NCBI GenBank assembly: GCA_001803045.1
Contig: MHAR01000091.1
Span: 4,188-68,187 of the forward strand
DNA: 64,000 nt
DNA from: Ignavibacteria bacterium RIFOXYB12_FULL_35_14
GTDB taxonomy: Bacteria; Bacteroidota; Ignavibacteria; Ignavibacteriales; Ignavibacteriaceae
Reading direction: 5' to 3'
Of the stretch, positions 13,159 through 36,506 are shown piece after piece. A model generated the notes under the pieces. The model was not told the origin of the DNA. It ran no database searches and was given only the letters and a program-made list of their open reading frames with translations. The position numbers and the translations under genes were made by a program. Each line of letters begins with the position of its first letter. Within the stretch, counting starts at the first letter, position 1.

Positions 13159-13278
13159 GCTGTCTCAAAAGTAATTTTTACTGTCACACTGAGCCAGTCG
13201 AAGTGTGATTTTAATCTGAATTGTCAGTCTTCGATGGCAATGCCACTCTGACTGACAATTTTGGACTTTGGAGACAGC
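13159..13278. repeat. MITE-like inverted-repeat element
   Basis: About 120 bp bounded by GCTGTCTCAAAAGT and its near-perfect inverted partner ACTTTGGAGACAGC. Inside are two copies of the REP-like TGTCACACTGAGC...GAAGTGTGA / GTCAGTCTTCGA hairpins. There is no ORF. It lies between convergent genes, so it could also serve as a bidirectional terminator. Confidence 0.55.
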
Positions 13279-13336
13279 CTCTTAAATTCCAACCTATCAA
13301 TTCTAATTATCGCACTAACACTTATCCTCCGAAGTG

Positions 13337-14632
13337 CTAACGAAGTAGGATCATCTTCTTTGTTAGAGTTGAACCGGCTGCATTTAACTTGTAAAGGTAA
13401 ACACCGCTCTGCAAGTCGGAAGCATCGAAAGTAATGCTGTGCGAGCCAGCTTCCATGTTTCGGTTAATTAAAGTTTTAACTTCCTGTCCAAGCAAATTGT
13501 AAACTACCAACCTTACGAATCCATTCTGTACTAAGGAAAAAGAAATTTGTGTTGAAGGATTGAACGGGTTTGGATAATTTTGTTTCAGTTCAAATGTGCT
13601 GATTAAATTTGTGCTTACCTGTACAACTTTTGAATATGAGTATGAACCGTCAAAGTCTAATTGTTTCAGCCGGTAAGAATAAACTGTTTGTGATAAAATA
13701 TTTTTATCAGTGAAACTATAATTGTTGGCAGCGGTTGTTGTTCCGTTTCCTTTCACAAAACCGATAGATTCCCACTTGTTCGAAGCTGACTTTCTCTCAA
13801 TTGAAAAACCGCTGTTATTAAGTTCTGTCGCCGTTGTCCATGCTAAATTAACCTCTGAACCATTAGCGGATGCATTAAATGAAACCAACTCTACCGGGAC
13901 TATATCACTCCAGAAAGTTGAAACTCTAATGCCATCAACGATAACATTAGCTGCATTTGAACTGCTGCCTTGTCTCAAATTGACTGTCCCGAGAGAAACA
14001 GCATCGGTTTGTGTTGTAGCTACGGTCAGATTTGGAGCAGGTTCAGTCCCGCTAATTGCAGGATTAATAAATAGATTTATAGTGTCGTTTGCAAGTCCAT
14101 CGTTCAGCGCGTATTTAACTACCAATAAATAAGTCGTGCCTGTCGTATAGATTGAATCGCTGTATGCAGCTGGGTTTGACGTGGTGGAGCTTTTCGAAAT
14201 TCCAAAAGTAAGATTACCATTTGCGGCAAGTCTAACGAAAGTACGCGCAAAGAAATCAAAAGTATTTGTAGGATTAACACCCAAATGCAAGAAATAATCT
14301 CCCGGTGTTTGTGCACTGGTTACGTTTACCATAAAAGAAGCGTATACCGAACCACTAGTTACAGAATCAGTATATTGTTTATTAACATCCTGCCCTGTAG
14401 TCGTTAATAAAGCTGCATTCCCAATTCCCGAAGAAGGATAACCAACATAACTCAGCCCAGGTGAAGCAACGGTAACCGGATTTACCGTAGATGTACCGGT
14501 TATATTCCATCCATGGTTTAGTAATGTGTCCCCTGCCGGGTAATCAAAATTCTCTTCTAATAGAAGCTGCGCAAAAGTGTTGAGTGAAAACAAAAGAGAA
14601 AGAACAAAAACCAGCGTGAAAATTTTTTTCAT
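13337..14632 (-). CDS. Secreted protein with T9SS type A sorting domain
   Basis: A 431-residue exported protein. The signal peptide is residues 1-22 (ending NTFAQ). The N-terminal half (25-235) is rich in Ser, Thr, Gly and aromatic residues in a beta-jelly-roll-like pattern, and a fibronectin-like stretch (about 240-330) follows, with FNASANGSEVNLAWTTAT. The last 80 residues carry NYPNPFNPSTQISFSL, a YNLLGQEV loop and SGVYLYKL, the C-terminal signal recognised by the type IX secretion system. The domain is removed or used for surface attachment after export. The binding target is unknown. It is monocistronic. Confidence 0.85.
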   Translation of the reverse strand: MKKIFTLVFVLSLLFSLNTFAQLLLEENFDYPAGDTLLNHGWNITGTSTVNPVTVASPGLSYVGYPSSGIGNAALLTTTGQDVNKQYTDSVTSGSVYASFMVNVTSAQTPGDYFLHLGVNPTNTFDFFARTFVRLAANGNLTFGISKSSTTSNPAAYSDSIYTTGTTYLLVVKYALNDGLANDTINLFINPAISGTEPAPNLTVATTQTDAVSLGTVNLRQGSSSNAANVIVDGIRVSTFWSDIVPVELVSFNASANGSEVNLAWTTATELNNSGFSIERKSASNKWESIGFVKGNGTTTAANNYSFTDKNILSQTVYSYRLKQLDFDGSYSYSKVVQVSTNLISTFELKQNYPNPFNPSTQISFSLVQNGFVRLVVYNLLGQEVKTLINRNMEAGSHSITFDASDLQSGVYLYKLNAAGSTLTKKMILLR

Positions 14633-31875: not shown

Positions 31876-32436
31876 TTATATGATTAGTTTAGGGCGATTC
31901 ACCTCATTAACAAAAAGAAAAAATATTCCAATCATAATTTGAAATGAAGTGGTTACATAATAATAAGCCGGTCCGACTCCTACTTCATGATAATAAACGA
32001 AGAACTTTAACAATAGTGAAAACTCATACACAACCAACATTAAGTGAAATAACAAAATCCTGCGATTCTCACTAAAAAAAACAACTAAGATTCTAAGAAA
32101 AGAGATAAAAATTATAAAGTGGATTACAATTTGGATAATAGTAGAAACATTGATGGGATATAACACAACAAACAAACCTATGGTTAAGCAGGCAAAAACA
32201 AGCCAAAGCTTAATTTTTCTTTTAATTTCAAATAGGGTCGGATATAGAAGTACTATTGTTCCGAAAAGATAAGAAACAGTATAATTTAAATTAAGTATAT
32301 GACCCAAACTGTAAGCTATTGGATCAAGTAAACCGAGTATCAGGAAGAAAAGAAAGAATCTTGTTTTAAATTGCCTGATTGGGATAATCAGCCAGACAAT
32401 TATAGTTATATACGCAATCGATTTAAGTATCAACAT
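31876..32436 (-). CDS. Hypothetical polytopic membrane protein
   Basis: A 186-residue very hydrophobic protein with about six membrane segments, short loops and basic residues after the second and third helices (KTRFF, EIKRKIKLW). No transporter or enzyme motif is visible. It overlaps by one base the stop of the upstream secreted-protein gene (TAATG), so the two form an operon. A TACGTA-N4-TACGTA box lies upstream of that operon. It may be the membrane partner of the exported protein. Function unknown. Confidence 0.6.
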   Translation of the reverse strand: MLILKSIAYITIIVWLIIPIRQFKTRFFLFFLILGLLDPIAYSLGHILNLNYTVSYLFGTIVLLYPTLFEIKRKIKLWLVFACLTIGLFVVLYPINVSTIIQIVIHFIIFISFLRILVVFFSENRRILLFHLMLVVYEFSLLLKFFVYYHEVGVGPAYYYVTTSFQIMIGIFFLFVNEVNRPKLII

Positions 32437-32858
32437 TAATTACAAAATGGAGGACAAATTAGTGCATACTCCAAAGTAAAATTGCCATTAGTGATTGTTA
32501 AAACTTCCTTGCGTTGTTCTATGTAAGTCACCGGAGTATTCCCATTGTCTAATAATTCCTGAACGATCGAAGTAGAATATACATGAAATACTTCCGAACT
32601 ACTTACTGAAAACCCTGACGGTAATAAAACTTTTCTACTATCATCCAAAATATAAACATCATTATTGATAATATTAAACATAATTACTTTTGAACTTTGG
32701 CCTACAAAAGCCTTCAGACTTGAAGCAGGCATTTCTTTTGAAACTAATACTGTTCCGAAAAGTTCATTAGCTTCTTCCTTACTGAGAATCTTACCCTGTG
32801 AATATACATTTATGCTCATCAAGGTAACAACGGAAAGTGCAAATAATAACTTTTTCAT
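32436..32858 (-). CDS. Small exported protein with C-terminal Cys pair
   Basis: 140 residues when started at the ATG at 32858, chosen because AAAGGAGAAAAAA lies just upstream and the product then begins with a normal signal peptide (KKLLFALSVVTLMSINVYSQ). The mature part is 119 residues with alternating hydrophobic stretches and ends with ICPPFCN, a Cys-x3-Cys pair at the extreme C-terminus that could form a small loop. I recognise no family. It is first in an operon with the six-helix membrane protein and faces the response regulator gene across a region with two regulatory-looking boxes, so it is a candidate target of that system. Confidence 0.6.
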   Translation of the reverse strand: MKKLLFALSVVTLMSINVYSQGKILSKEEANELFGTVLVSKEMPASSLKAFVGQSSKVIMFNIINNDVYILDDSRKVLLPSGFSVSSSEVFHVYSTSIVQELLDNGNTPVTYIEQRKEVLTITNGNFTLEYALICPPFCN

Positions 32859-32913
32859 TTTTTTCTCCTTTTTTTTGTTGTCCCAAGATATTACTACAGC
32901 ATAACATAGTAAA

Positions 32914-32929
32914 TACGTACTTATACGTA
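32914..32929. promoter_or_regulatory. TACGTA-N4-TACGTA box 1
   Basis: TACGTACTTATACGTA: two TACGTA half-sites separated by four bases. It lies 55 bp upstream of the exported-protein start codon (32858). The same 16-bp layout occurs at 33018 and 35206, near the two-component genes. Probably an operator for a dimeric regulator, possibly the NarL-type protein encoded at 33087. Confidence 0.6.
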
Positions 32930-33017
32930 TTTTTACTTGAGGGTTTCTATGGGTAGGGTTCGAAAAATCAACAAATTCGCAAGTTTTATTAAGAATTTTT
33001 CTTGAGGGTAAAAACAA

Positions 33018-33033
33018 TACGTACTTATACGTA
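33018..33033. promoter_or_regulatory. TACGTA-N4-TACGTA box 2
   Basis: TACGTACTTATACGTA, identical to box 1. It sits in a second copy of a ~90-105 bp segment: 32909-33003 and 33015-33103 align with indels and both end near TTAAGAATTTTTCT. It lies between the response regulator stop and the exported-protein promoter. Confidence 0.6.
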
Positions 33034-33086
33034 TATGCACTTAGAGGATTTCTGGGAAAGTAAAATTCAAAAATTCTTAAGTTTCG

Positions 33087-33764
33087 TTAAGAATTTTTCT
33101 TTTTAAACGCAGCATATGATATTGCATACTTGATTAATTCAGGAAAGGAATTGAGTTTTAATTTCTGCATAATGCGTCCTCTATGGGTATCTACTGTTCT
33201 TTTGGCACTGTATAATTTATCTGCTATTTCATTGCTCGTCAATCCATCAGCGATCAATAAAAGGATTTCTTCTTCTTTGCTTGATAGCTGAGCAATCTCT
33301 TCAAAACCCGTAGAATACATATGACTTTCATAATCAGCGATGAGCTTTTCGATTTGCTCGTCAGAAAACCCCTGACCAAAATACTTTTTACCCTCTGATA
33401 TAATCTTGATAGCGTGGAGCAATTCTTTTTTCGTTACATTCTTATGTATTAATCCTGATCCGCCTGATTTTATGCAATGATATATATAATCCTCACCGCC
33501 ATACATCGATAAATATATAACTTTAATGTTGGGATCTCTTTCTGAGAGAATACTTACAGCCTCCATGCCTGATAACTCGGGCATGGAGATATCTGTTATT
33601 ACAAGATCTGGTTTTAGCTTAAAATATTTATAAATCAGATCTTTGCCGTCATTTGCCTCACCAACTATTCTAATCTTTTCTTCCGATAAGAGAAGACTAA
33701 TAATCCCTTTGCGGAACAGTTCGTGATCATCTGCAATTAGTATTTTGATTATATGATTTAACAT
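33087..33764 (-). CDS. NarL/FixJ-family response regulator
   Basis: A 225-residue two-domain regulator. The receiver domain (1-120) has the acidic pair in IADDHELFR, the phospho-acceptor Asp58 in VITDISMP and Lys108-like residues in IHKNVTKKE. The LuxR-type helix-turn-helix (about 155-215) reads LSSKEEEILLLIADGLTSNE followed by TVDTHRGRIMQKLKL. It is 6 bp downstream of its sensor kinase, the usual pair layout. The phosphorylated dimer would bind DNA; the nearby TACGTA boxes are the obvious candidates. Confidence 0.93.
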   Translation of the reverse strand: MLNHIIKILIADDHELFRKGIISLLLSEEKIRIVGEANDGKDLIYKYFKLKPDLVITDISMPELSGMEAVSILSERDPNIKVIYLSMYGGEDYIYHCIKSGGSGLIHKNVTKKELLHAIKIISEGKKYFGQGFSDEQIEKLIADYESHMYSTGFEEIAQLSSKEEEILLLIADGLTSNEIADKLYSAKRTVDTHRGRIMQKLKLNSFPELIKYAISYAAFKKKNS

Positions 33765-33770
33765 AACATG

Positions 33771-34919
33771 TTAATCCTGTCTGAACGGTATCTCAGCAAT
33801 GATGGTTAATCCATTAGTTTCAGAAGAATCAATTTTTAATACGCCATTGAATCCTTCTGTTCGTTCTTTCATATTTAACAATCCAAAACCGCTGTTTTCT
33901 CCCTCAATTTTTTCATTGTCAATTATCCCGCAGCCATTATCAGTTATTATTGTTCTTAAAATTTCTTTGTCCTTCATAATGATAACGCTAAACTCACTAG
34001 CACCTGAGTGTTTTACAATGTTACTGATTGCCTCCTGAATAAGCCTGTAAAAATAGATTTCTAATTTTTTGTTCAGCCTCTGATTCAATCCAATGATCTG
34101 AATGCTCCCCGATATGCCGCTTTCTTTTGAGATGTTGTTGCATAAAGTTCTCAATGCAGGCTCAAGTCCCATCTCATCAAGTACCTTCGGCTTAAGATCA
34201 TAAATTATCCTTCTTAATTCTTCGGTAGTGTTTTCAAGATGGAACTCAATCGGTTGAAGCAGGGCAATTATATTTTCAGCCGATTCGTCTGACATTCTCC
34301 TCAGTCCTAACTGAACAAAATATAAATCCTGAACAATACCATCATGCAATTCATGAGCTATTCTGAATCTTTCTTCATCAAGCTGGTTTTGAAGATGAGT
34401 AGAAAGCTGCTTCAATTTGATTTCAAGATTTTTTATTCCAGATATATCGCGAAGGTAGAACTGCACAATACCAAGATCAGCATTACCTTTTAATAAAACA
34501 TTATAGTGTACACCATTAAATGGAAAAGCGAATGAGTAACTTTCATTTAATTCGATTTTTTTTTGTAAGTCCGGCAGAGAGAGATTAAAAATTTTATCGG
34601 TGAGTATTGTCCCGATCTCTATTTTCAATAATGAATATGCAGCTTTATTAAAAAAAATTACTTTGCCTTCATAGTTCACTCTCAGAACTGGATCAGGATC
34701 AAGCTCAGCAAATTGAGCCATCATTTTACTGTTTCTTAGCTCGATCTCTTTTTTTTCTTGAATGTGTTTATGTTCGAGGGGTTTTACAAGATAACGATTT
34801 ATAAAGTACAGTAGTATCACTACCGTTACGGCAATGAAGATTATCAAGAAGAATGGATTTGACCAGCTGTTTATGATATCATAAAAAAGAGAATTATAGT
34901 TGTCTGCTGTTTGCATCAT
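33771..34919 (-). CDS. NarX/DegS-type sensor histidine kinase with PAS domain
   Basis: A 382-residue membrane kinase. One membrane helix (about 22-40) is followed by a short PAS domain (about 65-165), then the HisKA_3 dimerisation region with the phospho-His192 in HELHDGIVQDLY. The ATPase domain has N-box EAISNIVKHS and the G boxes TDNGCGI and GFGLLNMKER. There is almost no periplasmic part, so the signal is probably sensed in the membrane or cytoplasm (PAS). It is the first gene of the pair with the NarL-like regulator. The PAS ligand is unknown. Confidence 0.92.
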   Translation of the reverse strand: MMQTADNYNSLFYDIINSWSNPFFLIIFIAVTVVILLYFINRYLVKPLEHKHIQEKKEIELRNSKMMAQFAELDPDPVLRVNYEGKVIFFNKAAYSLLKIEIGTILTDKIFNLSLPDLQKKIELNESYSFAFPFNGVHYNVLLKGNADLGIVQFYLRDISGIKNLEIKLKQLSTHLQNQLDEERFRIAHELHDGIVQDLYFVQLGLRRMSDESAENIIALLQPIEFHLENTTEELRRIIYDLKPKVLDEMGLEPALRTLCNNISKESGISGSIQIIGLNQRLNKKLEIYFYRLIQEAISNIVKHSGASEFSVIIMKDKEILRTIITDNGCGIIDNEKIEGENSGFGLLNMKERTEGFNGVLKIDSSETNGLTIIAEIPFRQD

Positions 34920-35303
34920 ATCAATATAAAATGGTTTAGAATTTACTTGATAATTTCATAATAATATCAAAAAAAGGTGGTTGAATCACATTCCTTTTAT
35001 TTCCCAAAGCAAAAAACATTCATTAGAATCTACTGATTTTCAAAATCTTCATAGACAAGATACTGAAATTAATAAAATAGATTGAAATGATTTTTCAAGT
35101 CAACCACCTATTAGATGTCTTTTTACAGATTACCTCTCAAACCGTGTAAGTGTAAGCATTTGCTACAGTTACCGGTTTTAACACAAATCTTAAGATTATT
35201 AAAAATACGTATATATACGTATTTACTTTTTACCCAACGATTTTAATCTTATTAGTGTTATACGAAACTCGTATATCTGTTAAGATAAAAAAGAAGGGTA
35301 AAA
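34920..35303. other. Divergent regulatory region between sensor kinase and DUF3892 cluster
   Basis: A gap of 384 bp. Its right half contains box 3 (35206-35221) followed by TTACTTTTTACC and then AAGAAGGGTA as ribosome-binding region of the DUF3892 gene. No ORF. A long AT-rich stretch (34970-35110) shows nothing I can name. Confidence 0.5.
35206..35221. promoter_or_regulatory. TACGTA-N4-TACGTA box 3
   Basis: TACGTATATATACGTA, the same 16-bp two-half-site layout as boxes 1 and 2 with a different spacer. It lies 83 bp upstream of the first ATG of the DUF3892/deacetylase/nuclease cluster and suggests that cluster shares a regulator with the operon at 32858. Confidence 0.6.
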
Positions 35304-35582
35304 ATGATAGAGAGAAAAGTTACAAATACAAGAAAAGATGAAAACGGGAGGATAATAGATTTTTGCAACCCGGTCGAGTGGTGGTCACCGAGAAATGCCA
35401 TTGAAGTTATAAATGATATTGAAGAGTCATATTATTTGTACTACGTGGTTGTTAATGGACAGAAAGTTTTAATAAAAGTAATTAATGGCTCGGTGGAAAA
35501 GTTCTTAAGAACCGATCCCGACAAAACAACCAAAAACTATCTAGATGATCTTCCGGTGTTAGAATCAACAATGCATAAATGA
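35304..35582 (+). CDS. DUF3892 domain protein (stand-alone copy)
   Basis: A 92-residue protein of the DUF3892 type: VTNTRKDENGRI, a WWSP core, then YYVVVNGQKVLIKV and FLRTDPDKTTKNYLDDLPVL, which resembles the usual YLRT-D-x3-NNLL-x-LP ending. The family is small, beta-rich, of unknown function and often found in accessory regions. At 45614 the same domain is fused to the deacetylase; here a TGA after MHK separates the two. It is the first gene after box 3. Confidence 0.78.
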   Translation: MIERKVTNTRKDENGRIIDFCNPVEWWSPRNAIEVINDIEESYYLYYVVVNGQKVLIKVINGSVEKFLRTDPDKTTKNYLDDLPVLESTMHK

Positions 35583-35592
35583 AAATCGTTAT

Positions 35593-36183
35593 ATGAACAT
35601 TAAATATGATTCATTGATCGGACTAAGTGAGGTAATGCTAACATTTAATGATGGCCCTCATTCCACTTTAACTCCCAGATTATTGGATTTGCTAAAGGAG
35701 GAAAATATAAAAGCTATGTTTTTTGTGCTTGGTATAAATGTGGCTGCAAATAATAATATTAAAATTGTGAAACGTGCTTTTGAAGAAGGACATATTATTG
35801 GCAATCACACATACTTCCATAGAAATCTTAGGAGTTTATCTGATTTTGAAATTCAAACAGAAATTCTGAATACAGAGGGATTTATTAAAGATTACATGAA
35901 AACCCCTAAACCATTTCGCCCGCCGTACGGTGCAACAAACTCAAGGATAAATAGAATAGTCCGGGAATTGGGTTATGTAAATGTTCTTTGGAATGTAGAT
36001 ACACTTGACTGGAAGGATAAAAGTATTAAGTGGGTTAAGAGTGCAATTCCGCAAATATATGCTCGAGAATATAATGTTGTTTTAATGCATGACACTTATG
36101 AGTCAACCATAAATAATGTATTAGAACTAATAAAAGCAATAAAGGGAAAAAAAGAGCGATATGAGTTTATTAGTTATGTGTGA
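35593..36183 (+). CDS. CE4 polysaccharide deacetylase-like protein with altered motif 1
   Basis: A 196-residue NodB-homology protein. Motif 2 (NHTYFH), motif 3 (RPPYG), motif 4 (DTLDW) and motif 5 (LMHD) are intact. Motif 1, normally TFDDG, reads TFNDG: residue 19 is Asn in place of the Asp that acts as catalytic base, while the metal-binding Asp20 remains. It may therefore bind but not deacetylate its glycan. The duplicate at 45614-46492 keeps TFDDG. There is no signal peptide, which is unusual for a cell-wall enzyme. It follows the DUF3892 gene by 10 bases and precedes an SNase-like gene. Confidence 0.85.
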   Translation: MNIKYDSLIGLSEVMLTFNDGPHSTLTPRLLDLLKEENIKAMFFVLGINVAANNNIKIVKRAFEEGHIIGNHTYFHRNLRSLSDFEIQTEILNTEGFIKDYMKTPKPFRPPYGATNSRINRIVRELGYVNVLWNVDTLDWKDKSIKWVKSAIPQIYAREYNVVLMHDTYESTINNVLELIKAIKGKKERYEFISYV

Positions 36184-36233: not shown

Positions 36234-36506
36234 ATGCAGGATACTATTTACGGAATGGTTGACACTGTAATTGACGGAGACACAATAATTATTATTGTTA
36301 CAGAAGTTAGTAAAGCCAATCAGAGCACATACAATAGATGGGAGCGTATTAGAATTGTAAATATTGATGTTTCAGAGTTAGGGTCGTTAGATGGAGACCG
36401 GGATAAAGTGAAGCTGGAAAATGCAATTAAACGGAAAAAAGTACAATGTTCAGTTCAGTCGAGAGACCCGCAGGGCAGAGTTGTAGCTGATGTTAAAATT
36501 ATTTGA
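36234..36506 (+). CDS. Staphylococcal-nuclease-like single-domain protein (copy 1)
   Basis: A 90-residue OB-fold protein resembling thermonuclease. VIDGDTIIIIV carries the first metal Asp, ERIRIVNIDVSEL aligns with the R-x4-D-x2-E core (SNase Arg35, Asp40, Glu43), and QGRVVADV aligns with the Arg87 region. The last two helices of SNase are missing, and there is no signal peptide. AAGGAG precedes the ATG. Paralogues lie at 45306 and 46533, and a truncated one at 39866. Conserved residues suggest possible nuclease activity. A role in attack on phage or rival DNA is speculation. Confidence 0.75.
   Translation: MQDTIYGMVDTVIDGDTIIIIVTEVSKANQSTYNRWERIRIVNIDVSELGSLDGDRDKVKLENAIKRKKVQCSVQSRDPQGRVVADVKII

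Follow-up and report, generated by a model that had tools for sequence, protein, structure and literature searches.

Gene content of the locus

The 64,000-nucleotide stretch analysed here, referred to as the window, encodes on its reverse strand a HisKA_3 histidine kinase (HK, 33771..34919) followed by a NarL/FixJ-family response regulator (RR, 33087..33764). RR has a receiver domain (PF00072, 7.4e-25, 87.7 bits) and then a GerE/LuxR HTH domain (PF00196, 4.6e-16, 58.6 bits), both above the gathering scores. HK combines HisKA_3 (PF07730, 41 bits) and HATPase_c (PF02518, 45 bits) domains with a weak PAS match and one N-terminal membrane segment, which carries an NP motif present in 41 of 47 homologues. 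Family searches found no periplasmic sensor domain in HK. The initial annotation called these genes a NarX/NarL-like pair, which is correct at the family level (HisKA_3 kinase, receiver plus GerE regulator and the geometry of a 16-bp site described below) but not beyond it, since scores against the equivalog models are far below the cut-offs. With 119 bits against the NarL model (cut-off 250), 87 bits against the NarX model (cut-off 578) and no nitrate genes among the predicted targets, we consider it highly improbable that this is a NarX-NarL pair for nitrate/nitrite, despite the family-level similarity and the NarL-like 16-bp site.

Further along the same strand lie EXP (32436..32858), an exported 140-aa protein ending in an invariant CPPxC motif, and directly downstream of it MEM (31876..32436), a 186-aa membrane protein with seven predicted helices. 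Neither matched a Pfam or NCBIfam family, and by their sequences they are two new protein families. Of the 164 genomes available for the order (Ignavibacteriales), 97 encode EXP. Outside the order it was found in a single genome of the class and, elsewhere in the phylum, in three genomes belonging to one genus; its named records are mostly Ignavibacteria metagenome assemblies. The gene order HK-RR-EXP-MEM is a recurring one: among 84 EXP loci, 76 have MEM immediately downstream of EXP and 40 have HK-RR immediately upstream. A further 16 have an HK after MEM and 7 have another HK nearby; in the remaining 21 no kinase was found near EXP, partly owing to contig ends.

Comparison of 70 EXP sequences revealed that C135, P137 and C139 are invariant and P136 nearly so. 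The AF2 model (pLDDT 81) predicts a folded domain of ~115 residues, with only the CPPxC tail and the signal region outside it. A signal peptide or lipobox was recognised by a rough rule on 66 of 83 EXP proteins. MEM has invariant or near-invariant residues at W15, F28, F31, Y137 and F173, none of them Cys or His. Fold comparison gave no significant match for EXP, with sliding-clamp domains weakly similar (best E 0.013, TM 0.45), or for MEM, with seven-helix receptors and rhodopsins weakly similar (best E 0.052). One locus (L090:5980-6792) encodes a tandem two-domain EXP protein in which both halves end in CPPYC. At three loci from another class of the phylum (L184-L186), EXP lies beside a different membrane protein of ~280-290 aa, a kinase-like gene and a NarL-type RR. 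The association of EXP with signalling thus outlives the MEM family.

TACGTA boxes in the window and the genome

A pattern scan of the window confirmed the three exact TACGTA-N4-TACGTA matches that had been reported in the initial annotation. Box 1 (32914..32929, - strand), read with the EXP operon, is a predicted RR dimer site. Box 2 (33018..33033, - strand) has the same sequence, TACGTACTTATACGTA, and box 3 (35206..35221, + strand), which reads TACGTATATATACGTA, is a perfect 16-bp palindrome located between the divergent HK-RR and DUF3892 operons. Boxes 1 and 2 arose by tandem duplication of a ~104-bp segment, and the three boxes therefore have only two independent origins. The earlier argument that a 16-bp site occurring three times is unlikely by chance holds as regards rarity, but for two independent events.

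Allowing up to two mismatches, five places in the window matched compared to 1.16 expected, and none of 100 dinucleotide shuffles reached five. In the whole genome (4,098,855 bases) the exact box occurs at four places and a reversed control pattern at none. Three of the four surround the kinase/regulator pair and the fourth is upstream of another exported-protein gene. One mismatch added a single place, inside a glycosyltransferase-like gene, and two mismatches were uninformative (47 matches, against 222 for the reversed control). The shuffles and the genome-wide rarity rule out a chance repeat as the source of the boxes, and the exact box proved to be rare and intergenic, not spread within genes.

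Linkage of the box to the module

To the initial annotation's question of whether relatives keep box and regulator together, the genomes of the order gave a largely positive answer. The exact box is present in 17 of 164 genomes, and in 11 of these a homologous module adjoins it. Among the 43 exact boxes in the 164 genomes, whose surroundings were fetched, 27 lie near an HK-RR(-EXP) module, by a hand tally in which near meant a homologous HK-RR pair or, in G098, EXP at a contig end. The other six box-bearing genomes have exact boxes only away from any module seen. Chance is a likely source of these, since several are single and some intragenic; in one of the six, G044, the boxes are on short contigs.

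The box was also conserved in Ignavibacteria RBG_16_34_14 (L149), whose EXP is 82% identical to that of the window. Upstream of EXP the DNA of the two has diverged, while both boxes and their spacers are identical and 105 bp apart, compared to 104 bp in the window.

We then counted dyads with a GTA-N4-TAC core and at least two further complementary pairs. They were detected in 27 of 130 regions upstream of EXP or HK compared to 9 of 454 upstream regions that served as controls (p=4e-12), some of the nine control regions being the regulon's own box sites, and in 28 of 136 regions compared to 1.4 in shuffles. Upstream of EXP in L127 and L137 are other symmetric repeats (AGTAGGGATATCCCTACT in three copies; TAGGGTTTACCCTA), which suggest box types outside the GTA-N4-TAC class. 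Four genomes of genus g4 (L020, L163, L164, L165) have the box-linked HK-RR pair with no EXP and MEM next to it; in three of them, L020, L163 and L164, the boxes are flanked by RR on one side and by two response regulators consisting of a receiver only on the other.

Probable operator switching between lineages

The sister species (G001) has the same layout as the window, with the 90-aa protein, deacetylase and DUF3892 genes divergent from HK-RR-EXP-MEM, and its RR is 65% identical to the window RR. The TACGTA box is absent from this genome (3.9 Mb). Instead, TCCGTA-N4-TACGGA occurs at two positions matching box positions of the window; these are its only copies in G001, and the window genome has none. 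The position orthologous to box 3 holds TCCGTAGTTCTACGGA. The half-site thus differs by one base pair between the sister species, with gene layout and site positions unchanged.

Other lineages have TTAGTA-N4-TACTAA and similar boxes, with the TTAGTA type at six other loci. Genome-wide searches placed these at the module in 5 of 6 cases in G099, 3 of 3 in G061 and 2 of 2 in G090. All of these box types share the GTA-N4-TAC core, and the outer bases follow the type of regulator: the recognition helix has Tyr (IDFYR/IDYYR) in RRs of the TTA type and His (VDTHR and the like) in those of the TAC type. Since the TTA-type RRs form one clade, this correlation represents one or few events rather than many independent ones. 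As judged from the sequences compared, the DNA box changes its letters together with its regulator across Ignavibacteriales.

These results bear on whether the boxes serve RR at all. A different, unlinked transcription factor, with the kinase/regulator pair nearby by accident, would fit the several box-bearing genomes with boxes away from the module. However, boxes accompany RR in 11 genomes, including g4 where EXP and MEM are not adjacent, and the box letters change with RR both in the sister species and in the TTA-type lineages; we consider such a factor very unlikely. They also bear on a reading of the boxes as terminators of transcription or as incidental palindromes of AT-rich sequence. 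Boxes 1 and 2 are just downstream of RR, and the sister-species site beside EXP looks like a stem followed by T. Against this, no terminator-like match was found at any box and the spacer bases are also conserved. Box 3 and its sister-species counterpart have divergent genes on either side, a setting in which a terminator would serve no purpose, and this explanation is hardly credible. Being rare, intergenic, conserved, linked to the module and co-varying with the regulator in the sister species, the boxes support the initial annotation's proposal of a small regulon of the adjacent regulator, whose binding to them is predicted.

Promoter geometry

The boxes were read towards the target gene and examined for core promoter elements. 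A -35-like hexamer (TTTACT/TTGACC-like) abuts the TACGTA box in 19 oriented sites compared to 4.3 in shuffles, by a criterion chosen after some sites had been looked at. TAnnnT lies exactly 17 bp past this hexamer in 10 of 18 sites; no other spacing between 10 and 25 bp occurs in more than two. In the window, the promoter scan showed this geometry clearly at box 1, where TTTACT (32908..32913, - strand) abuts the box and the -10-like TATCTT (32885..32890, - strand) follows at 17 bp, ahead of the EXP ATG at 32858. At box 3 it is partial (TTTACT at 35222..35227, + strand, with a weak -10, AATCTT, at 17 bp), and at box 2 it is absent. The TTA-type sites examined lacked the abutting -35/-10 of the TACGTA boxes, so that the geometry holds for TAC-type sites only.

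By standard promoter numbering the box centre is near -44. This layout is that of a class II activator and resembles the one at napF, where NarL acts. The 7-2-7 site used by NarL for activation spans -40 to -49 at napF and -38 to -47 at yeaR (PMC4549865). RR could instead be a repressor or negative feedback element at the boxes, since the sites abut the -35 and NarL-family proteins can repress, for example at frdA (PMC4549865). However, the end of the box coincides with the start of the -35-like hexamer, and the 17-bp spacing to the -10 is the layout expected of an activator. We therefore think repression rather unlikely.

Candidate targets

Predicted to be controlled from box 3 is the DUF3892 gene (35304..35582, + strand; PF13031, 8.1e-06), which lies beside a GTA-N4-TAC-type dyad in all six fetched loci examined. 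The next gene in the same direction encodes a polysaccharide deacetylase (35593..36183, + strand; PF01522, 1.1e-32) that is syntenic in the sister species with 69% identity. It is followed by a 90-aa conserved hypothetical protein (36234..36506, + strand) with a syntenic sister-species homologue, 38% identical. The last had been labelled a nuclease, a label that we drop as there was no significant family match.

The fourth box of the genome is intergenic, in the region of contig C37 at about 13214-13479 (L019:8215-8480), and is accompanied by TTTACT-17-TATATT. Downstream of it comes a 30-codon ORF (MIKSVLMHVLTAFLIFLITYLPNKQFHVNN), followed by the gene for a protein of 621 aa that carries a T9SS sorting tail. 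Box targets in relatives are largely envelope or exported proteins, namely lipoproteins in G004 and G042 and MauE-like and O-antigen-ligase-like clusters in G038. Lipoproteins behind boxes in two distant genomes (L021, L022, L026:5737-6804) have a recurring GRRDYTWTVDT-like motif and WGSSPxDVW repeats, and those tested matched no Pfam family. In G038 (L027:9586-18798) three further boxes are upstream of near-identical MauE-like genes, in clusters that also hold an O-antigen-ligase-like protein and a 6-bladed beta-propeller lipoprotein.

Proposed mechanism

Box rarity, linkage, conservation, co-variation, promoter geometry and module conservation are computed observations. The mechanism that we propose to account for them, and consider very likely, is that the boxes are operators of the adjacent RR for class II activation of EXP-MEM, the HK-RR/DUF3892 region and one distant gene, with EXP and MEM as partners of HK. 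HK would phosphorylate RR, and an RR dimer would bind the 16-bp inverted dyad through its GTA-N4-TAC core and the outer TAC/GTA triplets. Bound directly upstream of the -35 hexamer, RR would recruit RNA polymerase as a class II activator. It would thereby switch on EXP-MEM and one distant gene for a T9SS-type exported protein, and would also activate the divergent HK-RR/DUF3892-deacetylase region, resulting in autoregulation. What we infer is that RR binds the boxes, that it activates rather than represses, and what EXP and MEM do.

Since no periplasmic sensor domain was found in HK, sensing at the envelope or feedback to the kinase probably falls to EXP, exported and with its conserved Cys tail, and to the seven-helix MEM. 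In LiaFSR-type systems accessory proteins have such a role.

A bolder reading, which we regard as unlikely, is that Ignavibacteriales use HK-RR-EXP-MEM as a self-contained channel for cell-to-cell signalling or self-sensing. Exported EXP would provide the signal in the form of its conserved CPPxC tail, which is predicted to be disordered, either free or still attached. MEM, with its seven helices, would receive or process this signal and be coupled to HK at the membrane segment that bears the NP motif. RR would close the loop via the box, and lineage-specific switching of box and regulator would insulate parallel channels.

The mechanism that we favour, with RR as class II activator and EXP and MEM as partners of HK, would give one bacterial group a regulator with its predicted operator, the layout of the core promoter and a compact regulon. 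Literature searches found no studied regulation of comparable kind in that group and nothing on this box or module. A single signalling module would connect two uncharacterised families, EXP and MEM, with DUF3892. Collected across the order, the loci also form a natural record of how operators switch, and since a one-base-pair half-site change occurred with layout and positions kept, regulator-operator co-evolution is directly testable.

Comparison with known systems

The module shares with E. coli NarX-NarL a HisKA_3 kinase, a receiver plus GerE regulator and a predicted class II position like that at napF. The NarL site is likewise a 16-bp inverted sequence with outer TAC...GTA (engineered NarL site TACCCCTAAAGGGGTA, PMC4549865). 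Length and outer triplets of the 7-2-7 site fit the box, but the half-site of the box is TACGTA, not the NarL heptamer, and across lineages it is the inner GTA-N4-TAC of the box that stays fixed and the outer triplet that varies. Unlike NarX-NarL, in which membership was rejected on the equivalog scores given above, the module has a kinase with no identified periplasmic domain, the partners EXP and MEM, and no nitrate genes.

AgrBDCA is similar in having a small exported product, a polytopic membrane protein of ~190 aa, a kinase and a regulator in one cluster. However, EXP is predicted to be a folded ~115-residue domain rather than a short propeptide, and the kinase and RR families differ. An Agr-like peptide protease role for MEM was rejected, as it has no conserved Cys/His pair.

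With LiaFSR and VraTSR the module shares a NarL-type RR, a HisKA_3 kinase with no large sensor domain, an accessory membrane protein in the cluster and predicted autoregulated, envelope-related targets. LiaF is an accessory inhibitor in LiaFSR (PMC3543457). In contrast, neither EXP nor MEM is related to LiaF as judged by Pfam/NCBIfam, seven helices are predicted in MEM, and the module adds an exported Cys-tailed protein and is almost wholly confined to one order. Membership in LiaFSR was rejected, with HK scoring 92 bits against the Strep_LiaS model (cut-off 450) and EXP and MEM giving no LiaF match. By analogy, the module may nevertheless function as LiaFSR does, as a three-component envelope system with a NarL-family regulator, while being a member of neither LiaFSR nor NarX-NarL. 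Collectively, the best reading of the sequences is that HK-RR-EXP-MEM represents an autoregulated NarL-family envelope-signalling system.
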